A stretch of 41,480 nucleotides of DNA from a virus: positions 1 through 41,480 of IMG/VR virus record IMGVR_UViG_3300018420_002746. One strand, written 5' to 3'. Below are positions 14,383 through 38,830 of this stretch, piece after piece (within the stretch, counting starts at the first letter, position 1; each line of letters begins with the position of its first letter). The notes below the pieces were generated by a model. The model did not search any database, was not told the DNA's origin, and was given only the letters and a program-made list of their open reading frames with translations. Both the position numbers and the translations under genes were made by a program.

Positions 14383-15039
14383 ATGAAGTTTAACGAAATA
14401 ACCGAAAATGCATCCGCAGGCGCAACAGGCGCTGGATCAGTTTCATCCGTATCATCGCCGATGGGCACACAATCACGCAATCCTAGCATTTACGGCGGTA
14501 AAAAAGCAGGAAACTTATTGACAGGTAAACGTTCAAAGGGCAAATATGCTAATTCTGTTGATGCACGTAAACAAACCAATAAAGTTAATGAAGCAAAAGT
14601 TGATGAAGCGGAAGTTTCAGAAGCAGAAGTTCTTGTAGTTAAAGGCGCAAAGCCACGTGATCGCAAATCGGGATTTGTTAAACATGGTGAAAGCAGAGTA
14701 GACCACGAAGTCAAAATGGCTAAGGCTGATTTATTTGCAACTGCTAAAAACGCACAAGAAATTATGATGTATCTTAAAGATAGATCAGAAGAAGAAGGTA
14801 TTAAGGGTTGGATGCAGTCTTACATTACACTAGCAAACGACTATCTCAATTCAGTCAAAGAATCAATTCAATATGAAATGCAAATGCATGAAGATCAAGT
14901 TGCCGCATATGGCAACGGAGAAGATGATCGTTATCATGTAAATAAATTAGACATGGAGCCATATGGTGAACCTAGTTCAAGTTACCCAGGTGGAACATTG
15001 ACAGGTACGAACTTGGCAGAAGACGGGGACAAACAATGA
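14383..15039 (+). CDS. Putative capsid-targeted internal protein
   Basis: Encodes 218 residues. The start at 14383 follows an AAAGGA site and late box; an in-frame ATG at 14302 lies inside the terminator stem and is rejected. The protein opens 'MKFNEITE', matching a T4-type capsid-targeting leader with an (I/L)xE cleavage site at residue 8. It continues with a Gly/Ala/Ser-rich linker ('GSVSSVSSPMGTQSRN') and a basic stretch ('TGKRSKGKYANS'). The C-terminal half is helical and acidic. Likely a head-interior protein trimmed by the prohead protease; this is inference from the leader. Confidence 0.7.
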   Translation: MKFNEITENASAGATGAGSVSSVSSPMGTQSRNPSIYGGKKAGNLLTGKRSKGKYANSVDARKQTNKVNEAKVDEAEVSEAEVLVVKGAKPRDRKSGFVKHGESRVDHEVKMAKADLFATAKNAQEIMMYLKDRSEEEGIKGWMQSYITLANDYLNSVKESIQYEMQMHEDQVAAYGNGEDDRYHVNKLDMEPYGEPSSSYPGGTLTGTNLAEDGDKQ

Positions 15040-17156
15040 GTTCGATATTACGTGGACTAAATGAAAACAATGAACTGTTAAGTGAAGATAAAGTAGCATT
15101 AGCCGAATTAGACAAGGCGGCATTTGAAGCAGAACAAGCACTTAAGAGTGTAGATCAAGTAACTAAAAACATCAAGTATGGCACTGACACTACAGAAATT
15201 ATTGTAGGTGTACAGAGTATTGCAGATACTTTAAAAGGCTTTGATCATAAAGAACTTAACTATTACGAAGATAAAGTTAGAGAAGCAAACAACAATTTAG
15301 AATCTGCTGTATACGGTTTAAGAGAACCTTTCAATGACCTTGCACGTGATTTACGTTTAAAACATGATGAACTTGAAATGGATTTAGAAGACATAGACGA
15401 AGGTCAACGTTGCTGGAAAGGCTACAAAAAGCAAGGCACTAAAAAGATGTTTGGCAAGACTGTTAACAATTGTGTCAAAGCAGATGAATCTACAGACAAA
15501 GATTTAGCAGATAGAGTAAGGGACAGGCAACAACAATTTAAAAGGGATTCCACAGGCGACTTCTGGGACCACGTGGTAGTGAGGAAAGGTTTTTCTGGAT
15601 TAGATAAAGAAAAAGAAGAACGACCTCTTACTTGGCAGCAAAGGCAGGAGCTGAAACAACTGTTCCCAACAGAATCCGAAGATGCGACTCGACAGGGTAA
15701 ACTATTCGCCCGAGGATCCGCAGGCGAGGGAAACATCAGTAACAGACCAACCCCACCAGAATATACAACAATGGTACCTAAAAAGATAAGAACTCCCGGC
15801 ATTTATGGCAAATCTTATGATGGACAGATGAAAGGACATGCTCTGCTAAAATCTTTTATCGAAGACGGTTTAACTGATGAGGAAATTATAAGTCTTATAA
15901 GTGATATCGAACCTGGCGAAAATAAATCGAAACTTGCCTACAGGCGGGCGGGATCGTACATGTGGCCGTCACGGCGACCAGAGGGGTATGACCCGGAGGA
16001 AGAAACAACAACAACTAACACCCTTCACGGTGCTCGACTAGCAGATCAAGTAAGAGAAATACTACCATTAATGAGGAAAAAACTAGATCCACTTCAAGCC
16101 TGGCCAATGGGACCCATTACCCAAGAATCAGAAGAAGTAGACGAAGGAATGTATGACCAAGATGCATTTGATGCAATCTTTAAAGACAGAAAACAACCAA
16201 AAAAATCAAAAACTACTCCTCAAGATATAGGAATGTATAATCAACCTAGGCAGGATGACAAAAAATCAAACAAAGATAAAAAATTAGATGAGTTTCAAAG
16301 AGGTTCATTTGATGATGACAAACCTAAAAGACCTAGCAAAGGTAAACTTGTAACTAAAGATGGTATGCCAGTTACTCTGCCTTTAAGAACACAAGATTTC
16401 AGAGGTGACCCAATTGTAATTGTAGATTACATTCCACCTCATAAGCCAAGTTCAACAGGTAGAATTGTTACTGATGATGGCATGACCTATTTTCCCGGTG
16501 TTGCAGATTTAAAAATTATCGGACATCAATTTGATGTTGATGAAGGACTTGCAGGTGCAGCCTCAGGTGCATACTTAGGTAGCAAAATAGCCGGGATTCC
16601 CGGAGCAGTAGCAGGCGGCGTCTTAGGACATCAAGCAACTAAAGAAGGCAAAAAGTCACGTATTGGTTCAGTAATGGAAATGTATGATGACTATCTCTTT
16701 TTAATTTACATTAATGGTAAATTAGCGGCAGAGACGCCAATCGAAAAGAAGCAAAAGAATCAATATGAAAGAGTTATTAAACAAGCATTACCAGATGCAG
16801 AAGTTACATTCAAACCAACTCCAAGACATTACTATAGTGCAGAACAACTTTCGGAAGGATCAGGAAAGATTCGTGCAGGTATAGCAGGCATATTATTATT
16901 AGCCGGTTTGTTAGGTATAAACAATCATCAAGCACAAAAAGTATATGAAAAGTCACATCAGTTACAGCAATTAACACAAGTTTATATGGTTGCAAAAGAA
17001 AGAGGTGACGAAGCAAAAATGAAAGAGGTCAAGAGACGAATAGGTAATCACAAAATGAGACTTGACTTAGGTAAAGGCGATGTTGATTTTGACGGCCTGC
17101 CAGGAAAAGATGATATTAAAGACATCGATTATATTAATACCCCCGGAGAAAAATAA
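15036..17156 (+). CDS. Large mosaic protein with hydrophobic segments, probable virion protein
   Basis: Encodes 706 residues, overlapping the previous stop (ATGA). It opens with helical, charged sequence and has LNE and LSE sites at residues 8-10 and 15-17. A short Cys module 'CWKGYKKQGTKKMFGKTV' lies near 129, of a kind repeated in phage structural proteins. Residues about 167-365 are coded with more G/C and AGG codons than the flanks, like an inserted segment. A glycine-zipper-like region ('GAASGAYLGSKIAGIPGA') near 508 and a hydrophobic helix ('AGIAGILLLAGLLGI') near 615 could insert in a membrane. Function unknown; injection-related roles are possible. Confidence 0.68.
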   Translation: MSSILRGLNENNELLSEDKVALAELDKAAFEAEQALKSVDQVTKNIKYGTDTTEIIVGVQSIADTLKGFDHKELNYYEDKVREANNNLESAVYGLREPFNDLARDLRLKHDELEMDLEDIDEGQRCWKGYKKQGTKKMFGKTVNNCVKADESTDKDLADRVRDRQQQFKRDSTGDFWDHVVVRKGFSGLDKEKEERPLTWQQRQELKQLFPTESEDATRQGKLFARGSAGEGNISNRPTPPEYTTMVPKKIRTPGIYGKSYDGQMKGHALLKSFIEDGLTDEEIISLISDIEPGENKSKLAYRRAGSYMWPSRRPEGYDPEEETTTTNTLHGARLADQVREILPLMRKKLDPLQAWPMGPITQESEEVDEGMYDQDAFDAIFKDRKQPKKSKTTPQDIGMYNQPRQDDKKSNKDKKLDEFQRGSFDDDKPKRPSKGKLVTKDGMPVTLPLRTQDFRGDPIVIVDYIPPHKPSSTGRIVTDDGMTYFPGVADLKIIGHQFDVDEGLAGAASGAYLGSKIAGIPGAVAGGVLGHQATKEGKKSRIGSVMEMYDDYLFLIYINGKLAAETPIEKKQKNQYERVIKQALPDAEVTFKPTPRHYYSAEQLSEGSGKIRAGIAGILLLAGLLGINNHQAQKVYEKSHQLQQLTQVYMVAKERGDEAKMKEVKRRIGNHKMRLDLGKGDVDFDGLPGKDDIKDIDYINTPGEK

Positions 17157-17578: not shown

Positions 17579-18583
17579 ATGCGATTACGTGAATTGCAAG
17601 AAGGTATGGGAGCATCAGCAGGCGGAGGAACACCCGGATCTGCTGGAGCAGGTGGTTCATCATTAGGTCTCCCCTATCCATCAACATACGAAGAAGAAAA
17701 CGATAAGTTCAAATATCGTGGTCCCCAAAAAACTGTGGCTATGACAACCGAAGAACAAGGGGAAATGTTTACGGATCATCAAAAGATGCAAGAGATGATG
17801 AACGACAAAGATTGGCCAGCAGACTTGCAAGAAGAAGTTCTAAAAAAATATGTCAATAACCCTGAAGAGGGAGAAAACTTCATTGCAGATATGGAGTATA
17901 AAGGTATAAGACGATTAAGTAATTACGGTCTTTTACAAAATACAGAAAACTTAGAGTTATTAACAAGACTACCGCAAAACGTTATAGATAAAATTAACGA
18001 GACATGGCAAATGTCTATTCCTAAAACAAAAGCAACTTCAGTATCTGATTTAGGATACGAAAAATATATTATGCAATATGGTTTTCTTACAAAACCAGCA
18101 GTAGCAATGGATGCAGATATAATAATGGGTTCAGAAAAATGGGTTGCCAGTGTCATTAACGGTGAGAAAGCAAAAGCCTGTCATATTATAACACCTATAG
18201 GACCAGGTGTCAAGTCTAATACACCTGATAATAGTTTAGCACCCGCGAGACAAAAAGAACTAGCATTCGTTGAAGGCAAGCATTGGGCTAGAAATGATCT
18301 GCCACAACTCAATATTGATGATCTTAAAGACGAAGATATTGAAGAAAAACATGTACGATTTGAAAGGCTAAAACCTGTACAGACAGAACGTGTAAAAGGT
18401 CTTGTAAAAAAGACTCTTAAGATGTTAAAGAAAGGTAAACATAAACCTATAGTCATTGATAAACTTGGTTATATTGTAAATGGTCATCATAGATATGATG
18501 CGTATCAAAAATTAGGGGCATCATACGTTCCTGTTATTAAGGTAAATGCAACCATCGAAGAACTAATCGATAAATACATGTAA
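17579..18583 (+). CDS. ParB-like domain protein with capsid-targeting leader
   Basis: Encodes 334 residues. It opens 'MRLRELQEG', an (L/I)xE leader, followed by a Gly/Ala/Ser-rich linker to residue 30. The C-terminal 60 residues carry a ParB/sulfiredoxin-fold motif: 'KHKPIVIDKLGYIVNGHHR' with GHHR at 302-305. ParB-like domains bind DNA or hydrolyse nucleotides, and some are nucleases. The middle part includes charged helices. No clear ribosome-binding site is visible. If the leader is cut, the DNA-acting domain could be packaged and injected; that is inference. Confidence 0.75.
   Translation: MRLRELQEGMGASAGGGTPGSAGAGGSSLGLPYPSTYEEENDKFKYRGPQKTVAMTTEEQGEMFTDHQKMQEMMNDKDWPADLQEEVLKKYVNNPEEGENFIADMEYKGIRRLSNYGLLQNTENLELLTRLPQNVIDKINETWQMSIPKTKATSVSDLGYEKYIMQYGFLTKPAVAMDADIIMGSEKWVASVINGEKAKACHIITPIGPGVKSNTPDNSLAPARQKELAFVEGKHWARNDLPQLNIDDLKDEDIEEKHVRFERLKPVQTERVKGLVKKTLKMLKKGKHKPIVIDKLGYIVNGHHRYDAYQKLGASYVPVIKVNATIEELIDKYM
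18569..18577 (+). promoter_or_regulatory. Late-type promoter box
   Basis: GATAAATAC at the very end of the ParB-like gene, 20 bases before the Dps-like start. It overlaps codons for the last residues, so it could be coincidental. Confidence 0.35.
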
Positions 18584-18597: not shown

Positions 18598-19041
18598 ATG
18601 CTCTCAGAGAACCTTAAAATACTATTAGCAACTTCTTATGCTTTTGTCATTAAAGCACAAAACTTTCATTGGAATATCGAAGGTTCTAACTTTCCACAAT
18701 ATCACAAATTTTTTGATGATTTAAATAACGAAGTCTATGAAAACGCAATCGATAGAACTGCGGAATACATTCGTACATTAGAAGCATATACTCCTGGTTC
18801 TATTGGACGTTATGCAGAACTGTCATTAATACCTGATCAAGTAAAAATACCTAGAGCAGAATTAATGTTTGCAGAACTGTATAGAGACAATGAAATCATC
18901 CTCGAACACTTAAACACTTGCTACGATTCAGCAGAAGCAGAAAAACAATATGGTATTTCTAACTTTGTTGCTGAACGTTTAGATGCTCACAATAAACATC
19001 AATGGATGATAAGAAGTACACTTAAGACTAACAGGGAGTAA
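18598..19041 (+). CDS. dps: Dps/ferritin-like protein
   Basis: Encodes 147 residues, a little shorter than Dps (about 160). The diagnostic region reads 'QNFHWNIEGSNFPQYHKFFDDL' followed by 'AIDRTAEYI': His24 and His36 keep the Dps spacing of 12, and Asp52 and Glu56 keep the spacing of four, with one extra residue between the two pairs. Dps proteins oxidise and store iron in 12-mers and can coat DNA. No long basic N-terminal tail is present, so DNA binding is uncertain. It has an ACAGGAAC site. It may protect phage or host DNA from oxidative damage. Confidence 0.82.
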   Translation: MLSENLKILLATSYAFVIKAQNFHWNIEGSNFPQYHKFFDDLNNEVYENAIDRTAEYIRTLEAYTPGSIGRYAELSLIPDQVKIPRAELMFAELYRDNEIILEHLNTCYDSAEAEKQYGISNFVAERLDAHNKHQWMIRSTLKTNRE

Positions 19042-19043
19042 TC

Positions 19044-22000
19044 ATGCTCTCTAGTCATTTTGAAAGCATACTACTAGAATACAAACAAAGCATCACTGCT
19101 AAAAAGATGGGTGAAGGCCTTGTCGGCCGTTTTAATTTAGATATAATAGATTTTCCTAGTCTGTTGACTCCTAAACTTACAAAAGCATTTGAAACAATGG
19201 AGAAACTTGACGTTCAAATAACTGATTTTGAGAATAAAAAAGAACAGAACGAAATCAAACCCGAAGAACTAGCCAAGTTACAACCTAAAATACAAAAAGC
19301 ACAAGAACAATATAACATTTTAGAAAATCAAATAGCCGTTCATATCTTAGAAAAGTTAGAAGCCGCAGACCCTACAAACAATAAAGGTTATGTACAGTGG
19401 TTAGCACGATTGTATATCAATGGTGAAACAAGTTTAGAAGATGTAGAATCTACTATTGCTGATTACTTAGATAAGTTTCATAAATTAAAAATTAAACGTC
19501 ATTTGTCTAATGCAGACATAGGACAATATAAAGATTTTGATGCGTTTATGAATGATATGGATCAATATCCTAATGACGTTTTAGATGATGATGAAGCAAA
19601 AAACAAAACATATAAAGCAGACAAAATATATGATGAAAATGGCGTCTTAATTATTCATCCAAAAGACAAAGAAGCGGCATGTCGATATGGTCGCGGAACT
19701 CGTTGGTGTACAGCCTCAACACGAGGACACAATTATTTTGCTTCATACAATCGTAGAGGACCTCTCTATATATTTGTCCCACGCAAACCAGATCATCCAG
19801 GAGAAAAATATCAGTTTCATTTTGAAGACAACGTAGTTGCAGACGAAACAGATGCTTATTTGGATCAGGATCAATTAATTCGTTTAGTAAATAGATACCC
19901 AGCACTTAAAGATGCCTTTCAACCACAAGCAGAAAAGTACGGTCTTATATATCTACAAAAACCGAAAAGAGTTATGAAAGGTTCTAACTTTACAGTAGAA
20001 GAATACAGAAAAAATGATAAGCCTTTATATTTGATGTTAGGAGAAATGGATGTAGATGGTGAATATGGCAAACAAGACATATACATGCTATGGAAAAAAG
20101 ATCCCAATGATGATAACTACCAAATTAAAAAAATCGGTAATAGTAGATATAGAGATGATACAACATTAAACGTATTAGAACAGCACAAATTAGTTAATAA
20201 ATATCCTGAACTAATTAGTAAATTTGGATTAAAAACAAAACACCTTAAAAAAGATCCTACTCGGAGCCAAACAAAATCGGGTGCTGATATAGAGATGCAT
20301 GGGACGACCGCTGTTCTTAAAGACAAGCAAGGTCATAGCACATCAATAGAACTAAGAGATCCAGACAAGAGCCGGATTGGAGATGATAAACTATTAGTAC
20401 ATACACAGAAAACAAATCCTTTTACATCAAAGGATAAAAAAGAGATTAGAGATCAGATTAATCCTTTTGAAGTAACGTTAGAACATCCTGAACTTATTGA
20501 TTTGTATTCTCCTCTATTAGATAAAAAAATTAAACATGAGGTCCGGCAACATCATGGTGATGCCAAAGATAAAAGAAAATTTAAAGAAGACTTATATCAA
20601 AAATATGCACCTTTAATGCCTTACAAACTATATGACAAAGGTGATGTAATAATTAAAAGTCACGTAACTCCAGACGGAAAACCTATCTTAGACTATATAA
20701 TTACAAAAGATAATGATAAAGAAACAAATGCAATAACAGTAGTTTATCGTAATCAACGAGATGGCAATGTTGATAAAATTATACAAGCAGAGCCTAGACC
20801 ATTATATGATTTAGCAGATGAAGAAGACTATAATCTGAGAACTCCAGCCGGAGATATCTATGGTAATGCAGAAGAAGAATCTAAATATCAACGTTATTAT
20901 CAAAGGATGAATGATTCCTTTCGATCATCAAACGCATTACCCTTTTTACCTTCAATTTCTATTATAGAAAAATATCCTGGTTTAAAAGAATTATACAAGG
21001 ACACTTCTTTAGCATCACCTAAAACAAAAGAAGTATCAAATGCCAACGTAAAAGATTTTGGAAAAACAAAACGTGAATCAAACAAACGATCATATTATAG
21101 AAATGACTGGCATGATACCACAGCAGAAACAATGCGTAACTTTATTGTTCAACCCAAAGATGCAGAAGAAGGTGAATCATATGCCATTAGTTGGAGTCCA
21201 GAAATTCCTCAATTAAGTGAAATTTATCATTCTGCTTCAGACGGTACTCAGACAAAGATAGGGGACAAGCAAACTAAAAGACATGTTTTAAAAAGTTTTC
21301 CTGAAATCAGAGCATTACAAATAAAAGACTGGGATAAATTTATTAAAAATAATCCTGAGTATGATGTTAAAGAACATGGCGCAGGTGACAGCAGTTATAA
21401 TGATGATATATTACAAGATTGGAGTTTTTCGCCCACAGAGGTTGTTGATAATGATCGTGTAATAGTATCACAGTTCGGACCCAAACAAGGAGACCCCTTC
21501 CAACTACCTAGTTTTGAAGTTTTTCCTAAACAAAAAAATCCATTTGGTAAAGTAGGAGATACATTTTTTATTTACTTAAGTTTAAAAGATTATCGCGGCA
21601 AGTCAGGAAAAATTAGTGACATTAGAATAGAACGTATCGGGAAAAACACTCATCATTTTGTACCTGTTAATAAATATGGTAGGACTGAAAAACAGGGCAA
21701 TGAAGATTTTGTACAAGCCGGAGTTCAATTAAGAGAAAATCAATATAGTTTAGACTCTAAAGAAATTATCGATTTCTTTAAATACTATCCTGAATTAAGA
21801 GGAATGATTAAAGATGAAAATGTACATCCTAAAGTTCCGCATCCAGCACTTGCAAAACAACCAGAAGATTCTTCAGAAAATGTTCAGCAAATGGACGGAT
21901 TTAAATTAGAAAAACAAACAACAAATGATCCTAACTTAGACAAATACTTTATTGTACCAGATGAAGAAAAATACCCCGGTGAGTATTATACTATGTTTGA

Positions 22001-25000
22001 GTATCATCCTTTAAAAACAAATCCATTAGGAAAATCAACTAACGTATTTACAGATTACGGAAGACCTGTAGCATTTAATGAAAGGGGAATGATTCAATTA
22101 GGTGTTGGGGAACAAAAAAATAATAGTTATCATAGTAAAAACGATTCAATGTCAGACTTTGTAGATTCTGCTAGGGGAGGTGCAGGAAGTATTACACCTA
22201 ACACACCTCTTTATAATGAACTAATGGAACGTTTTCCCGAGTTGGCAAATTATATTGCTGAAAAGAGTAAAGAGATTGGAGATGTTAGAACTCAAAATCT
22301 AACAGAAGAAGATATAATTGAAGTAGGACAAAACAGAGTTTATATATTTAAAAACCATGATGGCTCTGATTGTTATTATATTACCCCAATAGCAAATGAA
22401 ATTAGACGAACCAATGGTGAAATTAGTGATAGACATATATCATCTGAAACTGAAAGAAGTATGTCGCAATATCAACGAACTGCCCACACATTAAACCCAA
22501 GAAAAATAGCAGGGCATGAAGAAGATTGGGAAGATGACGATCATTGGAACTCTGGTGAATCGTATGTGATTAACTTTGAAAGTACAGAAAGCAATCCTTT
22601 CTTACAAGTTCCTTTGTACATAGATCCTTTTAGAGGTGTTGCAGAATTACAAGTCAATGCAATCGAATTCGATAATGATAATAAAAGATATACTGCTACT
22701 GAGGCTCCACAAAATAAACAATTTATTATTGATCAATTAAGTGCTGTACCACAGCCCAATGAAGAAAATATGAACACGGCAAGTTTCACTGCTAGAAACT
22801 ATCTTACAAGAGCAAAACAAAATCCAGAGTTAATGCGATGGTTAGAACAAAAGGCAGAAGAAGCAAATGCAAAGACAAATGGCGTGGGGGCATTTATTAA
22901 TTTTTTACCTATAACAACAGAACAAATGACAATAGACGTACCAAAAGTTCATGGTGTAGATGTAGTAGGTATTGCAAAAATAGGCATTTCAAATCCTTTA
23001 TATATTTGGCAAGGAAGAAAGGCTATTTTTCAAAATATAGAAGACAGATTATTAGCAGGTTCAGAAAATTATTATCAGCGGCAGGAGAGTGACAACCCCG
23101 ACCCTTACACTCAATGGGCCAATGAATATGCTAATTCAAAAGATTTAGCACCAAAACAAGAAGGCGGCAGTATTAGAGGAATGTCAAGGTTTATATCTGA
23201 GACAGTATCAGAAGGTGTTGTCGGCATAAAGCCTGAATCCGGTGGCAAATTTTTAGATTATGACTATCATCGTACTACTGGCAGAGGCATTACTTTAACT
23301 CAAGTACCAGATGCTAAATGGGTAACAACAGGCAATCAATTATTAAATTTAAATAAGATAGCCAAACCCAAAGAACTAAAACAAATGGGTTTATCACCTA
23401 CACAGGCATGGGGTCCTCGACAGGTTGCTCAATTACCTAATCCTCAAATAACAAATAAAGGTAAACCTTGGATTAATAACATTAAAGAATTTAAGTTTCC
23501 TGATGGCTTGGGTATTAATGCAAGTGGGTATGGTAACAGATTGCCGCAAAAAGTTTTAGGTCCGGGAACAGGATATTTAATTACTTTAAATCCTATTAGT
23601 GATGAGCCTTATCGAAAACGTAAAGATGGTAAAATAGTAAACATGCAAAGTCCATGGCATACAGCAACTAGGGCTGTTAGAGATTTAGATTTACCTTGGG
23701 ATTTTACTCATGGTGTTTTAGATTATTCAAGAGGAGATTTTGAAAAGAAAAATACTATGATGATTTATTTTTCTAATAATCGTGTTGCTTATTTCTTAGA
23801 GCCAACTTATCACGGTGATTATAGACAGTTTAATCTATCACAAGAACAAAAGAAAAAATTATTCTTTGATCCAGAAACAGGTCTTTTCCCTGAACTAAAA
23901 CCTATATTTGATCAGTATGCAAAATCAAACAAATGGTTACGTGAAAATAAATGGCATTATATGCTGTCAAAAGTATTGTTTGAAAGTTTAGGAGATAAAG
24001 CATACTGGGAATTAAAAAAGAAAAAGCCAAAGCAAAATTATGGTCAACTAGTATTCTTAAATAACATACGATTGACAGGAAGTTATAGTAACGAACAATT
24101 AAAAGCAATGGGCTTCTTTATGAAGAACGGCTCTTGGGCAATACAAAAGCCTAAGTATGACAGACTTGTCAGTGACGGTAAGTTAAAAGAAATGATTAAC
24201 AGACCATTAAAGACTGGTACAAATAGAATACCTAAAGTAGGTAAAAAGAAAGTACAAGAAAACGTTTGGGCATTTGATGCAGAAAAAGCATTAGAGTTAT
24301 TGAAAGAACCTTTACTAAGAGGTGGAGATAATGATGATGTTGATTTAAGTTGTGAAGTGTGTCAAGGACATGGCTGTGGGCCAGGCTATGACATCAAAGA
24401 TGACTTGAGACGTTGGAAAGAAATGCTTATTCCAGATGCTGATTCAAAACCTGAACATCTTACAAACGAATACATTGAAGCAAGAGTAAAGAAACTAGAA
24501 GCACTTGTCAATAAGTATCCAAACGGAATACCTGACAACATAGATTGCACTGCTGGCATGTCTAATATGAAACACAGAGAATATCAAAAGATTAAAAGAC
24601 ATGATGCAGAAGATGTATTAGATGATGTTATCGGTGACGATGGGTTATTTGATGCTATGTCTGAATTAGATGAAGAAGATGATGTTAGACCACTAATAAT
24701 GAATTGGCTTAATCCAGACTGGAGAGCAAAACAAAGACCAGGGTTACCTGAATATCCACTAGTAGCAGATGTTGACTTTGCAGACCTATACAAAAGAGCA
24801 AGAAAAATTTATAACCCTTTACGTGTAGTTAAAGAAGGTAAGAAGTTACCTAGAACTAGTGAGTTCTTACATGTAAAAGAATTAGAAGACATTAAACGAT
24901 TGTCTGGCGTGTATGAACGTTATCAGATACCAGTACAAGTTGAAGGTGCAACATCAGCATATTCAGGTTCAAACATATCAAAGACTGCGGCAGAGATTGC

Positions 25001-25109
25001 AAAGATAATGAAAGAGAAAAACATTCAGCCCGGAACTCCTGAATGGTTTCAACTGTGGTTTTCACTACCAAAAATGACTGGCGAAAAGCCAACCGGAGAT
25101 ATAAAATGA
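19044..25109 (+). CDS. Giant 2021-residue repeat protein with WCTA motif
   Basis: By far the largest gene here. The N-terminus 'MLSSHFESILLEYKQSITA' contains an LLE site. Residues 214-225 read 'RYGRGTRWCTAS', followed by 'SYNRRGPLYIFVP' and 'KYQFHF', a domain I have seen in other phage proteins without known function. Downstream are about nine copies of a short motif (Y/F/H/N)P-(E/A/G)-(L/I), each closing a module ('NRYPALKD', 'NKYPELIS', 'EHPELIDL', 'EKYPGLKE', 'KSFPEIRA', 'YYPELRG', 'ERFPELAN', 'QNPELMRW', 'LFPELKPI'). A Cys cluster (1770, 1773, 1778) and a 'DIKRLSG' tag (1949) lie near the end. Possibly an injected virion protein; role unknown. Confidence 0.75.
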   Translation: MLSSHFESILLEYKQSITAKKMGEGLVGRFNLDIIDFPSLLTPKLTKAFETMEKLDVQITDFENKKEQNEIKPEELAKLQPKIQKAQEQYNILENQIAVHILEKLEAADPTNNKGYVQWLARLYINGETSLEDVESTIADYLDKFHKLKIKRHLSNADIGQYKDFDAFMNDMDQYPNDVLDDDEAKNKTYKADKIYDENGVLIIHPKDKEAACRYGRGTRWCTASTRGHNYFASYNRRGPLYIFVPRKPDHPGEKYQFHFEDNVVADETDAYLDQDQLIRLVNRYPALKDAFQPQAEKYGLIYLQKPKRVMKGSNFTVEEYRKNDKPLYLMLGEMDVDGEYGKQDIYMLWKKDPNDDNYQIKKIGNSRYRDDTTLNVLEQHKLVNKYPELISKFGLKTKHLKKDPTRSQTKSGADIEMHGTTAVLKDKQGHSTSIELRDPDKSRIGDDKLLVHTQKTNPFTSKDKKEIRDQINPFEVTLEHPELIDLYSPLLDKKIKHEVRQHHGDAKDKRKFKEDLYQKYAPLMPYKLYDKGDVIIKSHVTPDGKPILDYIITKDNDKETNAITVVYRNQRDGNVDKIIQAEPRPLYDLADEEDYNLRTPAGDIYGNAEEESKYQRYYQRMNDSFRSSNALPFLPSISIIEKYPGLKELYKDTSLASPKTKEVSNANVKDFGKTKRESNKRSYYRNDWHDTTAETMRNFIVQPKDAEEGESYAISWSPEIPQLSEIYHSASDGTQTKIGDKQTKRHVLKSFPEIRALQIKDWDKFIKNNPEYDVKEHGAGDSSYNDDILQDWSFSPTEVVDNDRVIVSQFGPKQGDPFQLPSFEVFPKQKNPFGKVGDTFFIYLSLKDYRGKSGKISDIRIERIGKNTHHFVPVNKYGRTEKQGNEDFVQAGVQLRENQYSLDSKEIIDFFKYYPELRGMIKDENVHPKVPHPALAKQPEDSSENVQQMDGFKLEKQTTNDPNLDKYFIVPDEEKYPGEYYTMFEYHPLKTNPLGKSTNVFTDYGRPVAFNERGMIQLGVGEQKNNSYHSKNDSMSDFVDSARGGAGSITPNTPLYNELMERFPELANYIAEKSKEIGDVRTQNLTEEDIIEVGQNRVYIFKNHDGSDCYYITPIANEIRRTNGEISDRHISSETERSMSQYQRTAHTLNPRKIAGHEEDWEDDDHWNSGESYVINFESTESNPFLQVPLYIDPFRGVAELQVNAIEFDNDNKRYTATEAPQNKQFIIDQLSAVPQPNEENMNTASFTARNYLTRAKQNPELMRWLEQKAEEANAKTNGVGAFINFLPITTEQMTIDVPKVHGVDVVGIAKIGISNPLYIWQGRKAIFQNIEDRLLAGSENYYQRQESDNPDPYTQWANEYANSKDLAPKQEGGSIRGMSRFISETVSEGVVGIKPESGGKFLDYDYHRTTGRGITLTQVPDAKWVTTGNQLLNLNKIAKPKELKQMGLSPTQAWGPRQVAQLPNPQITNKGKPWINNIKEFKFPDGLGINASGYGNRLPQKVLGPGTGYLITLNPISDEPYRKRKDGKIVNMQSPWHTATRAVRDLDLPWDFTHGVLDYSRGDFEKKNTMMIYFSNNRVAYFLEPTYHGDYRQFNLSQEQKKKLFFDPETGLFPELKPIFDQYAKSNKWLRENKWHYMLSKVLFESLGDKAYWELKKKKPKQNYGQLVFLNNIRLTGSYSNEQLKAMGFFMKNGSWAIQKPKYDRLVSDGKLKEMINRPLKTGTNRIPKVGKKKVQENVWAFDAEKALELLKEPLLRGGDNDDVDLSCEVCQGHGCGPGYDIKDDLRRWKEMLIPDADSKPEHLTNEYIEARVKKLEALVNKYPNGIPDNIDCTAGMSNMKHREYQKIKRHDAEDVLDDVIGDDGLFDAMSELDEEDDVRPLIMNWLNPDWRAKQRPGLPEYPLVADVDFADLYKRARKIYNPLRVVKEGKKLPRTSEFLHVKELEDIKRLSGVYERYQIPVQVEGATSAYSGSNISKTAAEIAKIMKEKNIQPGTPEWFQLWFSLPKMTGEKPTGDIK

Positions 25110-25408
25110 AAGAAGTAAATTATGACGAATTAAATCGTATCAGAGAATTATCAGGTACGTTGCGTGAATCATGGCAAGAGAAAATGAAAGATAGACCTAT
25201 GCCATTTGATGCACAAATATTAGATGATGAACCTGCAACTGTAATGAATCCTATCAGTGGTGCTACTATTAAACTTGACCCACAAGAAATTGCAGTATAT
25301 GATGTTATCATGGGTGCGAACTTAACACAGCAATGGGACTTAGTAAGAAAAGGTTCTGACTGGTTTAGAAAACATAATCCAGAAGCATATATGGTTTTAA
25401 TAGACTAA
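25106..25408 (+). CDS. Small protein with LSG-type cleavage tag
   Basis: Encodes 100 residues; the start at 25106 overlaps the giant gene's stop (ATGA), which favours it over the upstream in-frame ATG at 25043. The N-terminus 'LNRIRELSGTLRES' matches the 'DIKRLSGLTES' tag seen in other proteins here and has an LRE site. The rest is a compact domain with conserved-looking 'NPISGATIKLDPQE' and 'SDWFRKHNPEAY'. I recall similar short proteins in marine T4-like phages; function unknown. Confidence 0.7.
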   Translation: MKEVNYDELNRIRELSGTLRESWQEKMKDRPMPFDAQILDDEPATVMNPISGATIKLDPQEIAVYDVIMGANLTQQWDLVRKGSDWFRKHNPEAYMVLID

Positions 25409-25575
25409 TGAAGATAAGAGAAGTTATTACAGAGGCTGACGTAGAATACAGTTCTACAAAGCCCGGGAAACGTATGCACAAGATTGGTGATATATATGGT
25501 AAAAAGAATACCGATCTGCCCACCGCTAAATATAAAGATAATAGAAACGATAAACAAAAAGGAATATTTAAATGA
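25408..25575 (+). CDS. 55-residue protein with capsid-targeting leader
   Basis: Encodes 55 residues, starting on the last base of the previous stop codon and overlapping the lipoprotein start at 25572 (ATGA). It opens 'MKIREVITEADVEY', a clear (I/L)xE leader with cleavage predicted after residue 9. The remaining 46 residues are very basic (many Lys and Arg), like T4 internal proteins that bind packaged DNA. The continuous couplings on both sides support it as a real gene. Role is inferred. Confidence 0.72.
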   Translation: MKIREVITEADVEYSSTKPGKRMHKIGDIYGKKNTDLPTAKYKDNRNDKQKGIFK

Positions 25576-27102: not shown

Positions 27103-28541
27103 GATTTTTTATCTGCAAGGAAAAATCTAAATTTACAAAAGACTGGAACATAGAAAATTTTGGTGATTGGTATTTTATACGTGAAAATGATGTTGAATTA
27201 TTTGAAGGAGAAAATTTTATTGTATTACATTCCGGTTATTTAATTGACGATGACATAGATGAAGTTTGTAAAAACTTTAGTTTTAAAAAAACCAATGGAA
27301 ATTTCTTTGCAATAAAACTCACCAAAGACAATTATGAATTAGCATTAGATTATTTTCAAAACCATAAATTGTTTATCGGTAACAAACACGGTATAGAAAT
27401 TACTAACTATTTGCCCTACATGACAATTAAGCAAGAAGACATTGTTAGAACAAGTGTTAAACCAGATCAATATGAACGTGAACTATCAGAAACAGAACGC
27501 ACTACTTATTATGATAAGATATTTATTTTTGATCCAGGCTATGATTACATACAAGATGCAAAAGATGCATTTGCACAAGAAATTTGGCATGATCAAGCAG
27601 AATTAACCGACTATATACATGGGTGTATGCAACAACACGCAGATATTATTAAAGAAAAATATCCAGTTAGGATGTGTTCTTTGAGTGAAGGATTTGATTC
27701 AGCAGTACAAGGTCAATTTTTTAAAGATGACCGACAATTATTATATATTGTAGAGCCGTGCATTTCAGCAGAAAACCATAAAAAATTTATAAAATTAGCA
27801 CAAGAACAGTTTCCTAATACGCATGTTATGGAATATGAAACACAATATAACAGACAGCATTGCCTAGATCACTTGACGGATTCTTCATGTCGTTGGCAAT
27901 CTGTACTGCCAACACTGATGCAAGTAAAAATGCAAGACATTAAACCTGATATTATCATGTACGGCAGTAATGGTAACGAGATGTTTTGTAGAGATTTAAT
28001 ACCTCATATGTTATTTTTGTGTTTACAGTATTATAACACTGATAAAATTAAAATGAAAGAAGATTTTTTAGCAGATATACGAAACAAAAATAATCTATAT
28101 GGCTCTACATATTCAATATTAAATTCTGAAGAAGAACAGAACTCACACCACGGTTTTACTGCTATTGTTAATAAATTTGTTGACAAATGGTTTGACTCAC
28201 CGAATACACACTATCTATCACATAAAAAATATGAAGAATTTGAAAATGAATTAATAAATCTTACAACTCCTAAATTATATACACGTGTAATTACAGGTAA
28301 TATAAACATTATGGCTTCATCATTATACAGTGATAGAAAGATATTTTATGAATTTTTAAAATCTGATAACAATGTATTAAGTGGTACTGCAATGAACGCA
28401 CCAACACAACGAGCATTGCTAGATAAATATAACTATAAGTTTGTAACACCACGCAATGATGTAGTTTTTGCAGACTACAATGAATTATATACTACATCTT
28501 ATGAAGCCACTATTGACCACGATTTAGAGCAAAACATATGA
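27099..28541 (+). CDS. Asparagine-synthetase-like (AsnB/lactam-synthetase fold) enzyme
   Basis: Encodes 480 residues. The C-terminal synthetase half shows the pyrophosphatase loop as SLSEGFDS (194-201; family SGGxDS) and a second motif 'MYGSNGNEMF' (G289-E294 region), matching the AsnB 'SGDGADELF' block. These enzymes adenylate a carboxylate and join it to an amine. The N-terminal half has a 'GNFFAIKL' like class-2 glutaminase domains, but lacks Cys at position 2, so glutamine hydrolysis is unlikely; it resembles beta-lactam synthetase or lasso-peptide cyclase in that respect. Product unknown. It overlaps genes on both sides. Confidence 0.72.
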   Translation: MRFFICKEKSKFTKDWNIENFGDWYFIRENDVELFEGENFIVLHSGYLIDDDIDEVCKNFSFKKTNGNFFAIKLTKDNYELALDYFQNHKLFIGNKHGIEITNYLPYMTIKQEDIVRTSVKPDQYERELSETERTTYYDKIFIFDPGYDYIQDAKDAFAQEIWHDQAELTDYIHGCMQQHADIIKEKYPVRMCSLSEGFDSAVQGQFFKDDRQLLYIVEPCISAENHKKFIKLAQEQFPNTHVMEYETQYNRQHCLDHLTDSSCRWQSVLPTLMQVKMQDIKPDIIMYGSNGNEMFCRDLIPHMLFLCLQYYNTDKIKMKEDFLADIRNKNNLYGSTYSILNSEEEQNSHHGFTAIVNKFVDKWFDSPNTHYLSHKKYEEFENELINLTTPKLYTRVITGNINIMASSLYSDRKIFYEFLKSDNNVLSGTAMNAPTQRALLDKYNYKFVTPRNDVVFADYNELYTTSYEATIDHDLEQNI

Positions 28542-29161
28542 GAGCAACAGAATTTATAAGTGAAGGATTTGCAGGAATACCTGATTATAAAACAATGCCT
28601 GCTTACAAACTTAAAAAAGCATCTAAAGGTAAACACAAATTCTTTTTGCCTACAGACACTCCTGTCCCTGCAGGTGTATCTGCATTAGACGAATACAATT
28701 TAGATAATGAAAAAGGTTTGGGTGTCGTTCCTAATAATACAGGCGGTCAACCAGACTATTTCGGTATTCGTGTTATGATGAAACCTTCTACATTTCATAA
28801 GTTAGCATTAAGTTTACCAAGAGATATGCGTAGTTCACAATATGAAGATTTAGTTGATAAAGTTCGTAAGGGCGTCCCTATTGCAAGTCCTTTCTTATCT
28901 ATTGTAATACCCGATGAGTGGGAAGAAGGCGATCTATCACAGCCTGCGAAGGTCACAGGGCACGAAGGAAGACACAGAATGTATGCAGTCGATGAAGTAG
29001 ACGGAGACGTTCCAGTTGAAGTACATATATGGGGAAGATTTAAATCTAGTGAAATGCGTAGGCGACATCTCACCGATGAGATGATACAAGAACTAATAAA
29101 TGGACTCGTTGACGAGACCGGAAATAATTACATTCCTAATATCGGCACACTAAAGAACTAA
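28538..29161 (+). CDS. ParB-like protein with capsid-targeting leader
   Basis: Encodes 207 residues. 'MRATEFISEGFAG' is a strong (I/L)xE leader cut predicted after residue 9. Residues 141-147 read GHEGRHR, a ParB/sulfiredoxin-like nucleotide-binding motif, followed by helices and 'WGRFKSSEMRRRHL'. It starts in the ATGA of the AsnB-like gene. As with the 17579 gene, a packaged DNA- or nucleotide-acting protein is suggested; substrate unknown. Confidence 0.72.
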   Translation: MRATEFISEGFAGIPDYKTMPAYKLKKASKGKHKFFLPTDTPVPAGVSALDEYNLDNEKGLGVVPNNTGGQPDYFGIRVMMKPSTFHKLALSLPRDMRSSQYEDLVDKVRKGVPIASPFLSIVIPDEWEEGDLSQPAKVTGHEGRHRMYAVDEVDGDVPVEVHIWGRFKSSEMRRRHLTDEMIQELINGLVDETGNNYIPNIGTLKN

Positions 29162-30817: not shown

Positions 30818-32077
30818 ATGGACAAGTATAAAAAGACAGCAGGATTAAACTATTTGAGTGAAAACTCATATAAGGGAGACGGTTCTCCTGGCATGGTAAT
30901 GGGTATTGCTAGTGATGCTCGTAGTGATACTAACACATATGAAGGTAAAAAGCCTACGACTAACAGTAAACACAGTACTGAAAGAGAACTAAAGAAATAT
31001 GATCCAGCACATGGTCATACAAAACCAGAAGGGGGAAATCCCCAAGTATGTCCTAGTTGTAAGGGAGAAGGTTGTACATCATGCGGAAACACAGGAGAAG
31101 TCATCAGCAAAAAACGCAATGACCCTAAAGTCGATGAATCATTAGAAGATATTAAAAGATTATCTGGACTAACAGAGTCTGGTTTTACAGGGGTTGAGGA
31201 AATTGATTTATTAAATGACCCAAATGGTGATCGCACACAGAAAGCAATATTAAGGCATCAATTAATGACAGATTATAATATTACTTTTTTACCTATACCT
31301 GGTGATATTGTTGATCATCCTGAGTTAGGCAAAGTAAAAGTTTTAAAAATTATAGGTCTTGATACTTATGGTGGTCCAGCAGAATATGAAATAGAGAATA
31401 GAAACGGTAAATCTTTTCCTATAACTTTTGATGAGTTGACAGATATGATTGGCTTCGGAGAAATAAGTGATGTGCCACAATCAGAAATATCAGAAGATAT
31501 TAAAAGATTATCTGGCTTATCAGAAGCATTTGCTTGGGACGAGATTGACGAAGCAAAACGAAAGGCAAGACATGATGATGACGATGATGAAGAAGAAGAT
31601 GAAAAGCCAGAAGATCCTGAAAAAGATAAAGTCCCGCATATTTTAATGCAACTAAGAAAAGCCCAAGACGTAGACGGCGATCACCCAATTAAGTTTTTAG
31701 ACGGTTCAGAAGTTATTTTACCATTAAAAGATATCAATTTGTTTACAGAAATGTACATGAATGTCAAGCCACAAGACAGAGAAAGATTACAACAAGTGGC
31801 TATTATGAGTAAAGATAAGTTTGATAAACTATTGACGTTCTTCACACCGAAACACGGAAAATTAGAAAAGAGTATCTATGAAGATGAAGAAGCAGGAGAT
31901 ATGATTACAGAAGAACAGTTTGACGAAGCCGCAGGCAAAAAAGATGCTTGTTATCACAAAGTCAAAAGCAGATATAAAGTATGGCCTAGTGCATACGCAT
32001 CTGGTGCTTTAGTTAAGTGTCGTAAAGTAGGTGCATCCAATTGGGGCACTGGCGGAAAGAAAAAGAAGAAAAAATAA
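30818..32077 (+). CDS. Multi-tagged Cys-containing virion-type protein
   Basis: Encodes 419 residues. The start at 30818 (ATG) fits the late box; a GTG at 30803 overlaps the upstream stop and is less likely. It opens 'MDKYKKTAGLNYLSEN' with an LSE site. A CxxC pair occurs at Cys 78, 81, 86, 89 ('CPSCKGEGCTSCGNTG'). Two near-identical tags, 'DIKRLSGLTE' (111-120) and 'DIKRLSGLSE' (227-236), are coded by a 23-base direct repeat. The C-terminus ('DACYHKVKSRYKVWPSAYA') matches a short domain widespread in marine phage structural proteins, then a Lys tail. It may be cut into several pieces in the prohead. Confidence 0.75.
   Translation: MDKYKKTAGLNYLSENSYKGDGSPGMVMGIASDARSDTNTYEGKKPTTNSKHSTERELKKYDPAHGHTKPEGGNPQVCPSCKGEGCTSCGNTGEVISKKRNDPKVDESLEDIKRLSGLTESGFTGVEEIDLLNDPNGDRTQKAILRHQLMTDYNITFLPIPGDIVDHPELGKVKVLKIIGLDTYGGPAEYEIENRNGKSFPITFDELTDMIGFGEISDVPQSEISEDIKRLSGLSEAFAWDEIDEAKRKARHDDDDDEEEDEKPEDPEKDKVPHILMQLRKAQDVDGDHPIKFLDGSEVILPLKDINLFTEMYMNVKPQDRERLQQVAIMSKDKFDKLLTFFTPKHGKLEKSIYEDEEAGDMITEEQFDEAAGKKDACYHKVKSRYKVWPSAYASGALVKCRKVGASNWGTGGKKKKKK
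31145..31515 (+). repeat. Two copies of a 23-base direct repeat coding DIKRLSG tags
   Basis: Identical 23-base segments at 31145-31167 and 31493-31515, 325 bases apart, coding 'EDIKRLSG'. Related but divergent coding sequence occurs at 24885 in the giant gene. Confidence 0.85.
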
Positions 32078-32391
32078 TGCGTATTAATGAAATCTTAACT
32101 GAGTCAATTATCCAAGAAGATTTACGAGCCTGGTTCGGCAAAGGCAAAGACGGTGGTGCCGGAGGCGGTGGTTGGGATAGATACAATACCAAAGGCGAAC
32201 GTGTAGGTAAATGCGGTGATGGTAAAGGCAAAGGCAAACCTAAGTGTTTATCTAAAAGTAAAGCCGCAAGTCTACGTAACTCTGGTGGCAAGAAAGCAAT
32301 TGGAAACGCAGTCAAAAGAAAGAAAAAGAATGACCCTAATAAGAATCGCAGGGGTAAAGCAAAGAACGTAAGCAACAAGCCGAAGAAGTAA
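32077..32391 (+). CDS. Basic DUF5872-like protein with capsid-targeting leader
   Basis: Encodes 104 residues, start sharing a base with the upstream stop (TAATG). It opens 'MRINEILTESII', an LxE leader. The body ('GGGGWDRYNTKGERVGKCG', 'KPKCLSKSKAASLRNSGGKK') matches the short Gly/Lys/Cys domain I know as DUF5872 in phage proteins. Lys and Arg dominate the C-terminal half, as expected for an internal head protein contacting DNA. Function inferred only. Confidence 0.78.
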   Translation: MRINEILTESIIQEDLRAWFGKGKDGGAGGGGWDRYNTKGERVGKCGDGKGKGKPKCLSKSKAASLRNSGGKKAIGNAVKRKKKNDPNKNRRGKAKNVSNKPKK

Positions 32392-33408: not shown

Positions 33409-33417
33409 GATAAATAC
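33409..33417 (+). promoter_or_regulatory. Late-type promoter box for the diiron gene
   Basis: GATAAATAC followed by TAGTAG, same context as at 6108. The ATG at 33462 follows a leader with AAGGAG. Confidence 0.6.
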
Positions 33418-33461: not shown

Positions 33462-34160
33462 ATGAAATCAAACAAAGAATTTGTTGCTAGTATTGTCGAA
33501 GGCAATCAAGCATTATTCAAAGCAAGTCAACTTAACGTTGCAGAGTATTTCGACAACATGCCTGACGAGGATGCGTTGGTAGAACACTTTGTTGGACGTA
33601 TGGTTAACGAAAGAATGAACATGGTAGAGATTAGTAATAATATTGCATCTATGCCTGCTGATGCAGATCCTGTTGAACTTCAAAACTTAACTAAACAAGC
33701 AAACGATGAAGCAATTCATTTTCGTTTAGTAAAAGAAGTTATTGAACATATCAAAGGTGAAGAGATTGATGTTGCAGAAGCAATCGCCGCTGAAGAAGCA
33801 AAGCCTACTGCTAAAGGTGCAAGCCTTTTAGAAAAGTATGGTGCTGATTCTGATCCAGCCGCTCTTGCCGCATATCAATTAGTTGCAGAAGGTCGTGCAG
33901 AAGCCGTTTGGAACACAATGGCAGAAGTAATCGATGATGAGTTTATCTCAACTCGTTATGCTAAAATTGCTAAAGACGAAGGTTTCCACAGCACAATCGG
34001 CGCAATGAAGTTAGAAACTTTAGTCGGTGATGCTGAAACTCAAGCACGTATCGAAGAACTTGTTTCAAACATGCGTAAAGACTTGTATGAAATTTCATGC
34101 AAAAACACTAGCCATAATGCAGAAGGACAAAAATTAGTATCAGAAGCATACGGTTGGTAA
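33462..34160 (+). CDS. Ferritin-like diiron protein with possible capsid-targeting leader
   Basis: Encodes 232 residues from ATG 33462, chosen for its AAGGAG site; a GTG at 33423 would add 13 residues. It has two ExxH motifs on separate helices (Glu83-His86, 'NDEAIHF'; Glu173-His176, 'KDEGFHS') and carboxylates Glu50 and Glu143, the ligand set of ferritin-like four-helix diiron proteins. Possible activities include oxygenase, oxidase or iron storage. The N-terminus 'MKSNKEFVASIVEG' resembles the T4 leader (MKTYQEFIAE) and ends in IVE. Iron binding is a motif-based inference. Confidence 0.75.
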   Translation: MKSNKEFVASIVEGNQALFKASQLNVAEYFDNMPDEDALVEHFVGRMVNERMNMVEISNNIASMPADADPVELQNLTKQANDEAIHFRLVKEVIEHIKGEEIDVAEAIAAEEAKPTAKGASLLEKYGADSDPAALAAYQLVAEGRAEAVWNTMAEVIDDEFISTRYAKIAKDEGFHSTIGAMKLETLVGDAETQARIEELVSNMRKDLYEISCKNTSHNAEGQKLVSEAYGW

Positions 34161-38091: not shown

Positions 38092-38100
38092 CTCTCTTTT
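38081..38100. terminator. Bidirectional palindromic terminator containing two stop codons
   Basis: GAGAGTTATAACTCTC (38081-38096) is a perfect 16-bp palindrome with T4 on the plus side and T4 (CCTTTTC) on the minus side. Both convergent genes end in it with the same codons, GAG TTA TAA. Confidence 0.65.
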
Positions 38101-38352
38101 GTTGACATCCTTGCAGATTTCTTTTGCAAGATCACTACCAGTTGTCACAAACAAAAACGGAAAGAACGCATGTATGATAACAGCAAGGCCTGTTAATAGC
38201 ATACTTACACCATAGTACAATGCACAACTTAAATGTTCCGTGTATGTTTCACCCAAAGAGTGTGGATGTTCTGTAAATTTGTTTCGGAGTTTATTGAAAA
38301 ACGTGATTGTTTTGCTCTCCGTATATTTTAATATACTTGCCGGCAATTTCAT
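38086..38352 (-). CDS. DUF6356-like small membrane protein
   Basis: Encodes 88 residues. The sequence 'EHPHSLGETYTEHLSCALYYG' followed by a transmembrane helix (about 45-69, 'GLAVIIHAFFPFLF') matches DUF6356, a family I know mainly from alphaproteobacteria. The predicted start overlaps the upstream peptidase gene by 62 bases, which is long for this genome, so the true start may be further in. The role is unknown; host-like origin is possible. One transmembrane helix is visible. Confidence 0.65.
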   Translation of the reverse strand: MKLPASILKYTESKTITFFNKLRNKFTEHPHSLGETYTEHLSCALYYGVSMLLTGLAVIIHAFFPFLFVTTGSDLAKEICKDVNKREL

Positions 38353-38830
38353 CTGCTTCTGATTCTATAGGAGACCCTGGATAACTTGAATTGGGTGTGA
38401 TTAAACCTTTTTCTCCTTGTCTGATATGAACAAGTTCATGGAATACTGTTCTAAGAATATCAATTAGATTTCTGTTGCCATAGACCCAAATCTCGTCAGA
38501 ACCAAGTTCGTGTCTACCCGTATGATGACCGTCTTGTGCCTCTTGTGTATCATAACTTAACTTGACTTTAGGCATATTTTCAATTTTTAAAACATTACCC
38601 ATCCAATGTGCGGCTTTTGTTACTTCATCCTCAATGTTTAAACCATCATCAAACATTTGATCAGAAGCAGTTAATTCTTGTCTTGCTTTGTGTGCTTGTT
38701 TGGCAGCCTGCTTGGCATTACGATAAATTTTACCTTTTTCGTCTACGTTATATTGATCACTCTTAATCTTGGGAAGTCTGTTTTCCAAGTCTTTAAGCGG
38801 ATCTTCATTGATAAATTGATAGGCTCTCAT
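38291..38830 (-). CDS. HEXXH metallopeptidase with capsid-targeting leader
   Basis: Encodes 179 residues. The start at 38830 is chosen because a late promoter box (38836-38843, minus strand) is five bases upstream and because the protein then opens 'MRAYQFINED', very close to the T4 leader. The active site 'TVFHELVHIRQG' (HELVH 131-135) and the third-ligand region 'ESEADEIAGKY' (about 156-166) are typical gluzincin-type zinc peptidase features. Residues 35-55 are a Lys/Ala helix. Protease activity is likely; packaging is inferred from the leader. Confidence 0.78.
   Translation of the reverse strand: MRAYQFINEDPLKDLENRLPKIKSDQYNVDEKGKIYRNAKQAAKQAHKARQELTASDQMFDDGLNIEDEVTKAAHWMGNVLKIENMPKVKLSYDTQEAQDGHHTGRHELGSDEIWVYGNRNLIDILRTVFHELVHIRQGEKGLITPNSSYPGSPIESEADEIAGKYIKIYGEQNNHVFQ

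Follow-up and report, generated by a model that had tools for sequence, protein, structure and literature searches.

Why do proteins with dissimilar bodies, encoded near one another in the genome of a large T4-like phage, share a type of short N-terminal leader whose last residues are (L/I)xE? The question is raised by the virus record IMGVR_UViG_3300018420_002746, a fragment of 41,480 bases that was analysed over its full length and is called the window below. The original prediction had listed nine such leaders and taken them for capsid-targeting leaders of the kind cut by the T4 gp21 protease. We consider it likely that they are N-terminal capsid-targeting propeptides of the gp21 type, which would be cut in head maturation while the proteins are kept in the head, and as a class they are very probably prohead-protease leaders. 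This interpretation is well supported because of the specificity at P3 and P1, the preference at P1', the gp21 homologues in relatives and the spread of the leader over dissimilar bodies; for three of the nine, the individual leader is weak.

The window is syntenic with jumbo phage PA5oct of Pseudomonas. The clamp-loader protein at 3660 is 51% identical to that of PA5oct, and the two share the gene order GroES-like, clamp loader, PhoH, two virion structural proteins, DnaJ and ClpA. Relatives of the window were the best 80 of 280 from a viral-contig scan. Five large contigs (G001, 361 kb; G002, 333 kb; G003, 303 kb; G005, 244 kb; G006, 230 kb) and four shorter ones (G009, G016, G018, G019) were examined entire; the latter are close to the window and were excluded from pooled counts, so that the six lineage sequences are the window and the five large contigs. 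The clamp loader of G016 is identical to that of the window. SPO1, N4 and phiKZ, with no PF03420 (gp21 family) match, and HTVC008M, with one, served as four comparison genomes. Genes were called with a custom caller, and open reading frames (ORFs) shorter than 45 residues, with a coding score of 8 or less, or overlapping better ORFs were removed before counts. Alternative starts entered only the leader survey behind the pattern R2, the count inside and outside the island and the count of upstream GATAAATAC sites, all described below.

Leaders and the specificity of their ends

Each of the nine leaders is encoded in frame from a start codon of the window, at 14383, 17579, 25408, 26059, 28538, 30818, 32077 and 33462 on the plus strand and at 38830 on the minus strand. 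A simple pattern, R1 (M(K/R), two to nine residues, (L/I)xE), matched 8 of 49 called genes compared with 3 of 251 internal methionines in the same proteins (p = 3e-5). The eight were seven of the nine leaders and 25106 (MKEVNYDELNRIRE), probably a chance match; 38830 fits R1 only at a start other than the caller's choice, and 30818 (MDKYKK...) does not fit. A narrower pattern, R2 (M(K/R), one to three residues, one of EDQNHK, one or two of FILVM, any residue, E), permits F, V or M too at P3, and was designed after viewing the leaders of the window, T4, PA5oct, G001, G002, G009, G018 and G019. It matched 6 of 49 window starts and 2 of 251 internal methionines (p = 3e-4). One of the six is 4876, which lies outside the island and probably matches by chance; window 4876-5094, starting MRNKFKE, encodes a 72-residue, apparently membrane protein.

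Unrelated genes carrying such leaders equally often had been named as a control. With alternative starts included, R1 leaders were present in 9 of the 28 genes between 14.3 and 40.0 kb and in none of the 21 genes elsewhere (p = 0.003), and the claim stood; by R2 (6 of 28 and 1 of 21) the direction was the same and significance was lost (p = 0.11). The leaders of 26059, 30818 and 33462 are longer or atypical, each weak alone. Part of the nine may be chance matches, which is possible individually for 26059, 30818 and 33462, as for 4876 and 25106.

Beyond the window, R2 starts exceeded internal methionines in G002 (15/380 vs 5/1594, p = 9e-8), G001 (10/401 vs 7/1672, p = 3e-4), T4 (6/254 vs 0/844) and PA5oct (5/343 vs 3/982, p = 0.03). 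Eight genomes (G003, G005, G006, G016, HTVC008M, N4, phiKZ and SPO1) had been unseen when R2 was designed. Among these, an excess was found in G003 (8/309 vs 10/1484, p = 0.006) and G005 (6/248 vs 9/1204, p = 0.03), while R2 starts numbered 0/186 in HTVC008M, 0/66 in N4, 0/345 in phiKZ and 2/180 in SPO1.

We then asked what precedes the presumed cut, requiring only an M(K/R) start and trying three leader lengths per protein. In the lineage, P1 was Glu in 58 of 253 cases with Leu or Ile at P3 (57 proteins), in 5 of 142 with Val, Met or Phe, and in 37 of 499 with any other P3 residue; the difference between Leu/Ile and Val/Met/Phe had p = 4e-8. The counts were 53/242 and 5/125 when the window was left out, and 5/11 and 0/17 in the window alone (p = 0.005). 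No such dependence was seen in the four comparison genomes (5/63 vs 4/58, p = 0.55), whether in SPO1, N4 and phiKZ (4/39 vs 3/44) or in HTVC008M, which has the protease (1/24 vs 1/14). Taking one protein per body cluster, P1 was Glu in 21 of 148 with P3 Leu/Ile and 24 of 410 with all other P3 residues (median p = 0.002, worst 0.009 among 200 draws). With the R2 prefix held fixed, Glu occupied P1 in 50 of 205 lineage cases compared with 2 of 40 in the comparison genomes (p = 0.003); the next residues, again of 205, were Thr (20), Lys (17), Asn (14), Asp (11) and Gln (10). P1', which was not used in selection, was Ser in 18 of 50 against 3.3 expected, or 7 of 24 against 1.6 when weighted by cluster. 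Codons differ at the conserved leader positions. The P3/P1 pattern is that of a protease reading (L/I)xE, the site of gp21.

Protease, head locus and gene island

PF03420 matched above cut-off in 10 of 37 records, namely T4, PA5oct, Atu_ph07, Phosso and G001-G006. The other 27, all of 171 kb or less, are probably fragments. A gp21 homologue, which the original prediction had proposed to look for, was thus present in the six longest relatives (G001-G006) and not within the window fragment. LxE sites stand at the start of three head-locus products: the protease, the capsid protein and that of the gene in scaffold position. N-termini of the capsid family, phrog_138, were taken from the best 80 of 598 relatives; all but one of 67 unique N-termini could be parsed with a pattern that fixes P1 as Glu, and in these 66 P3 was always Leu, while P1' was Asn in 35, Ser in 26, Thr in 4 and Ala in 1. 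The P1' of the leaders, with Ser and Asn first, resembles that of this capsid maturation site.

PA5oct gp212 (NC_071039 180349-181020; L081 11632-12303) is annotated as a head maturation protease and is presumably ClpP-like; it was dropped as the gp21 equivalent, as the PF03420 match falls in gp331. Beside the capsid gene (G002 174187-175903, L171; G001 179673-180245) lie proteins with the leaders MRINELLNE, MRITEIITE and MRINEIINE and, by eye, a glycine-loop-like stretch recalling protein kinases; one of these kinase-like proteins, when tested, had no Pfam and no PDB sequence match.

The leader behaves as a module. After removal of nine residues, the 51 R2 proteins formed 24 clusters of up to 13 members, between which BLASTP showed no similarity at E 1e-3; those with P3 Leu/Ile numbered 46, over 19 clusters. 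The window slot between 13319 and 39998 carries leader genes in G001-G003 too, mostly with other bodies. R2 leaders in this slot and in the rest of the genome numbered 4/20 and 15/381 in G001, 6/14 and 14/366 in G002 (p = 2e-5), and 2/12 and 11/297 in G003 (p = 0.085). Its flanks are conserved: the left flank, phrog_1574 (13319-14272, plus strand), is 79-86% identical in G001-G003, and the right flank (39998-40258, plus strand) 66-74%. The island proteins are probably loaded into the phage head, to judge from sequence, since unrelated proteins there have the same leader ending in a maturation-protease site.

The first cargo gene (14383-15039, plus strand) encodes the leader MKFNEITE and, behind it, a stretch resembling the N-arm that the major capsid protein of the lineage has when mature. 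Its family has relatives in 38 of 50 contigs. Among 33 N-terminal rows examined, representing 31 different genes, (L/I)xE is kept in 30, with one VNE, while nine residues occur at P2 among the 17 unique leaders. The next ORF (15036-17156, plus strand; 706 residues) has the leader-like start MSSILRGLNE, which was absent from the original list. By eye, the proteins that occupy this slot in G002 and G001 have similar starts (MSSILRGILQE and MSSIIKGLIDE), and no BLASTP similarity to them was found.

The original prediction had named two ParB-like proteins, of which one held. The protein at 17579-18583 (plus strand; leader MRLRELQE) has its best ParB-like PHROGs match at E = 4e-9, over residues 286-333 only (48 residues) in the C-terminal stretch, and no Pfam or PDB sequence match. 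The other (28538-29161, plus strand; leader MRATEFISE) is ParB-like by its GHEGRHR motif only, with no PHROGs or Pfam match and a structure model (predicted local distance difference test, pLDDT, 41) that is unusable. Leaders in its family vary (MRATEFISE, MRAKEFINE, MRAREFLSE, MRAFEFLSE) on bodies 71-97% identical. Neither 14383 nor 28538 had a match among the phage records searched.

The motif of the proposed HEXXH peptidase (38291-38830, minus strand; leader MRAYQFINE) was borne out: HExxH, as HELVH or HELTH, was present in 5 of 5 aligned sequences, and the model of its domain looks zincin-like. That model (pLDDT 68) had metalloproteases in its top VIA-align rows, Wss1 first (Z 8.4, root-mean-square deviation 4.6, 103 aligned), a best Foldseek E of 0.06, and no PDB sequence match. 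For the CxxC protein (26059-26628, plus strand; weak leader MKSRDFRKLNE, DnaJ-type CxxC motifs) and the diiron protein (33462-34160, plus strand; weak leader MKSNKEFVASIVE, ferritin_2-like match), motifs or matches were found and both fell below Pfam cut-offs. Of the small proteins, 25408-25575 (plus strand; MKIREVITE, 55 residues) is basic and 32077-32391 (plus strand; MRINEILTE, 104 residues with 30 K/R and 9 D/E) very basic.

The 2021-residue protein at 19044-25109 (plus strand) has, as had been noted, a looser variant of the leader, MLSSHFESILLE. G002_36861 (MRFREFLIE) and PA5oct gp279 (MKLFEVFTLYE), the latter detected by mass spectrometry (MS), are related to a portion of this protein. 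The protein at 30818-32077 (plus strand; weak leader MDKYKKTAGLNYLSE) has a basic C-terminal domain found also in cyanophage gp114, about 85% identical over residues 358-411. It matches 365 phage records, the best 25 of which align only via residues 280-411. In Pfam, ten leader or leader-like window proteins (25408 left out) had no match or one domain kind each. Six of ten leader proteins from G001-G003 matched cell-wall hydrolase, GH19, NT5C nucleotidase, DUF6267, DUF6321 and, below cut-off, Kinase-PolyVal; those with cell-wall hydrolase (PF07486) and GH19 domains lie at G001 328817-330265 and G002 43142-44440.

When 9-mers upstream of starts were counted, GATAAATAC ranked with the most frequent ones of the window, G009, G001 and G002, as did TTATAAATA in T4. 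GATAAATAC resembles T4 TATAAATA and, by this resemblance, is the probable late promoter of the lineage in its place. A late-promoter-like copy lies 34 nucleotides (nt) before 14383 (14349-14357, plus strand) and another 53 nt before 33462 (33409-33417, plus strand). Upstream of the first island gene, GATAAATAC was found at 31-35 nt in all 15 loci examined, those with the gene read on the given strand, of 30, some nearly identical. In the six lineage sequences, 12 of 81 R2 genes (called or alternative start) had it upstream compared with 58 of 1518 others (p = 1e-4); for single sequences, p was 0.05-0.47. Further window copies are at 6053 and 6108. A ferritin-like gene without a leader (18598-19041, plus strand) lies inside the variable island here as in G001-G003; a GATAAATAC site of its own precedes it in the window (18569-18577, plus strand, 29 nt away) and in G002. 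To the left of the island, window 11086-13242 encodes a 718-residue protein with a cytidylyltransferase-like N-terminus (PF01467, E = 3e-4), of which G001-G003 match only the first ~200 residues.

Likeness to the capsid arm behind the leader

In 14383 the last Glu of the leader is followed directly by NASAGATGAGSVSSV; in an example of the lineage's capsid protein, LKE is followed by NASAGSTSAGNIATL. A capsid-arm profile searched against 2,513 proteins from ten genomes ranked the four capsid proteins at the top, together with a repetitive protein that had no good single domain, and window 14383 next (E = 0.009). Its relatives L274/L275 reached 1e-6, and those in G001 and G002 had E of 1 or worse. 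For seven family members, 0, 0, 1, 17, 22, 1 and 34 of 5,000 shuffles matched the score. Caution is needed because A, S, T and G abound in the segment. The reverse profile, from the mature part of the 14383 family, returned after its own members PA5oct gp281 (E 0.013) and then the four capsid proteins (0.26-1). In pairwise rankings against the arm of the genome's own major capsid protein, the 14383 relative was not first in G001, G002, G003 or G006, where other proteins, several of them long and repetitive, scored higher, and HTVC008M gave no convincing arm mimic. The pairwise and reverse-profile searches being weak, the likeness is based on the capsid-arm profile, the shuffles and T4.

T4 gp61.1 (NC_000866 18966-19130, minus strand), a 54-residue hypothetical protein with the leader MKTFKEFIKE, separately supports arm likeness behind a leader. 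Behind that leader, 26 residues align without gaps to mature gp23, in the same register to the cut, with a score of 69; the next-best T4 scores were 39 for the gp23 arm and 50 for gp61.1, and 0 of 20,000 shuffles reached 69. The arm-like segment was present in all of eight further Straboviridae relatives, chosen by similarity to gp61.1, behind a longer N-terminal part in five. In five of these eight phages, a search with gp23 also reached the gene of gp61.1 (E 9e-5 to 7e-4). By eye, (L/I)xE stands right before the segment in five of nine phages (T4, MIZ3, Octan, PM2, PX29), and gp61.1 scored above the mean of other arms against its own capsid arm in seven of nine genomes, and below it in RB43 and Octan. 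The likeness has already been picked up by annotators, since the records teqhad and dhabil (2 of 40) label gp61.1 'major capsid domain-containing protein'; the titles and abstract beginnings found in the open-access literature search do not report it. PA5oct gp281, detected by MS, has a similar arm-like segment (phrog_17311), and its presumed site reads VEE.

We tentatively suggest that T4-superfamily phages encode small capsid-arm mimics, proteins that once matured would begin with a stretch resembling the mature N-terminal arm of the phage's own major capsid protein, an idea that we regard as possible and still doubtful. Examples would be 14383, T4 gp61.1 and perhaps PA5oct gp281, each like the arm of its own lineage. 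If so, a mimic cut by the same protease as the capsid could occupy the binding place of the arm and tether cargo or DNA in the shell; docking at the arm site is a guess.

Other readings and known systems

We propose that late-made proteins would bind the prohead core through a leader of 8-10 residues, whose typical form is M-(R/K)-x-x-(E/D/Q)-(F/I/L)-(I/L)-x-E. During head maturation the lineage's gp21-family protease would cut past (L/I)xE, and the mature protein would stay in the head together with the DNA, with which it may be delivered into the host, as the original prediction had suggested for a large cargo of enzymes. The leader would be a module fitted to numerous unrelated bodies, several of them encoded within an island whose genes are replaceable, and the arm-like segment of the first island protein, right behind the cut, may aid docking inside the shell.

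MS-detection notes for 93 proteins of PA5oct, a distant relative, bear on this proposal. The canonical-looking leader proteins gp333, gp246, gp104 and gp105 were detected, and gp330, in scaffold position, was not, as expected if it is degraded. Several results weigh against the proposal. In PA5oct, R1 leaders were present in 5 of 93 detected and 7 of 253 other proteins (p = 0.20) and R2 leaders in 3 of 93 and 2 of 253 (p = 0.12), neither significant; gp103, gp213 (MKIKEIILE), gp075 and gp060 have leader-like starts and were not detected. The P3 test was not significant in T4 (p = 0.22) or PA5oct (p = 0.13) alone, nor was R2 in G006 (5/212 vs 11/1135, p = 0.09) or G016 (3/94 vs 4/486, p = 0.09; R1 p = 0.17). 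About a quarter of R2 matches may be chance, 12 of 50 being expected from the frequency of Glu. HTVC008M has the gp21 family, yet R2 matched none and R1 one of its 186 starts, and the 41,480-base window itself has no gp21-family match. R1 is not specific alone: SPO1, where no gp21 family match was found, had 7 of 180 starts compared with 6 of 633 (p = 0.012). Relatives of the HEXXH protein lack the leader in G001 and start with ML in G002 and G003. Among the gp61.1 proteins, (L/I)xE is missing before the segment in four of nine (VIPKPNUMC01, Aes508, RB43, POP12), and T4 gp61.1 has no TATAAATA within 200 nt upstream.

The alternative that survives best gives the leader proteins a structural role: like T4 gp67/gp68 or the scaffold, they would belong to the interior or core of a large head and be cleaved by the protease without being injected effectors. 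PA5oct gp333 (MKINDIITE), directly behind the portal gene and MS-detected, would suit such a role, as would the small, basic window bodies and the capsid-like arm of the first cargo protein, and some leader proteins could indeed be structural. As an account of the whole set it is possible and, in our view, unlikely, given that the bodies are diverse, are swapped between relatives, and include zincin-like, ParB-like, muralytic and nucleotidase domains. That the motif is another sorting signal, for the tail, a membrane or a replication compartment, and is not cut by the prohead protease, seems improbable: leader proteins with cell-wall hydrolase domains might suit tails or lysis, but Glu at P1, Leu/Ile over Val/Met/Phe at P3 and a P1' like that of the capsid maturation site argue for the protease. 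Chance, through hand-picked matches in AT-rich phages where MK/MR starts and (L/I)xE are frequent, could draw on the SPO1 excess and on several individually weak leaders, but is very improbable given the P3/P1 dependence absent from the comparison genomes, the Ser excess at P1' and the constancy of (L/I)xE in the 14383 family beside a variable P2.

If gp21-type leaders do mark head-borne proteins, an (L/I)xE leader followed by Ser, Asn, Gly or Ala at P1', at the starts of proteins in gp21-encoding phages, gives a rule from sequence alone that predicts head-borne jumbo-phage proteins. Being head-borne, such proteins may therefore be the first to affect the host, countering restriction for instance. 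The likeness to the capsid arm, seen in T4 gp61.1 too, could explain how cargo is retained in the shell, and is quickly testable in the best-studied phage.

The closest known system is that of T4, where, according to excerpts of the published accounts, gp21 cuts head proteins, ten residues of the capsid-targeting sequence (CTS) are enough for targeting (PMC9026906), and internal-protein genes were found through the CTS signal (PMC12373910). In these excerpts the T4 proteins IPI-IPIII and Alt, with a CTS cut by gp21, have, like the proteins here, a short N-terminal (L/I)xE leader common to unrelated bodies (PMC9026906, PMC7411985, PMC9391042, PMC12373910), a plastic locus and a gp21-family protease in the lineage. 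The T4 CTS is MKTYQEFIAE, whereas here MRAxEF(I/L)xE or MKIxDIxE precede more and other bodies, for which packaging is proposed. T4 gp61.1 and window 14383 both have a leader and then, directly, a likeness of the mature capsid N-arm; gp61.1 differs in its 54 residues, its locus between genes 61 and 61.2 and the lack of TATAAATA just mentioned. The ejection proteins of phiKZ and SPN3US, as excerpted accounts describe them, are likewise many head proteins with propeptides cut after xxE by a prohead protease (PMC10052503, PMC7411985); unlike here, the SPN3US motif is AxE with most propeptides longer than 100 residues, and phiKZ has no PF03420 match and no R2 start (0/345). Polyvalent proteins, in the excerpt available, likewise have ParB-like and zincin domains, among others, that are believed to reach the host along with DNA (PMC5512222), whereas here the domains seen are on separate polypeptides behind a leader, and the scanned window proteins had no Pfam polyvalent-domain match. 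The titles and abstract beginnings found in the open-access literature search report no jumbo-phage cargo island with such leaders. As a concept the leader was already established in T4; what the literature searched indicates to be new is the jumbo-phage variant, how many bodies it has, the island and the likeness to the capsid arm.

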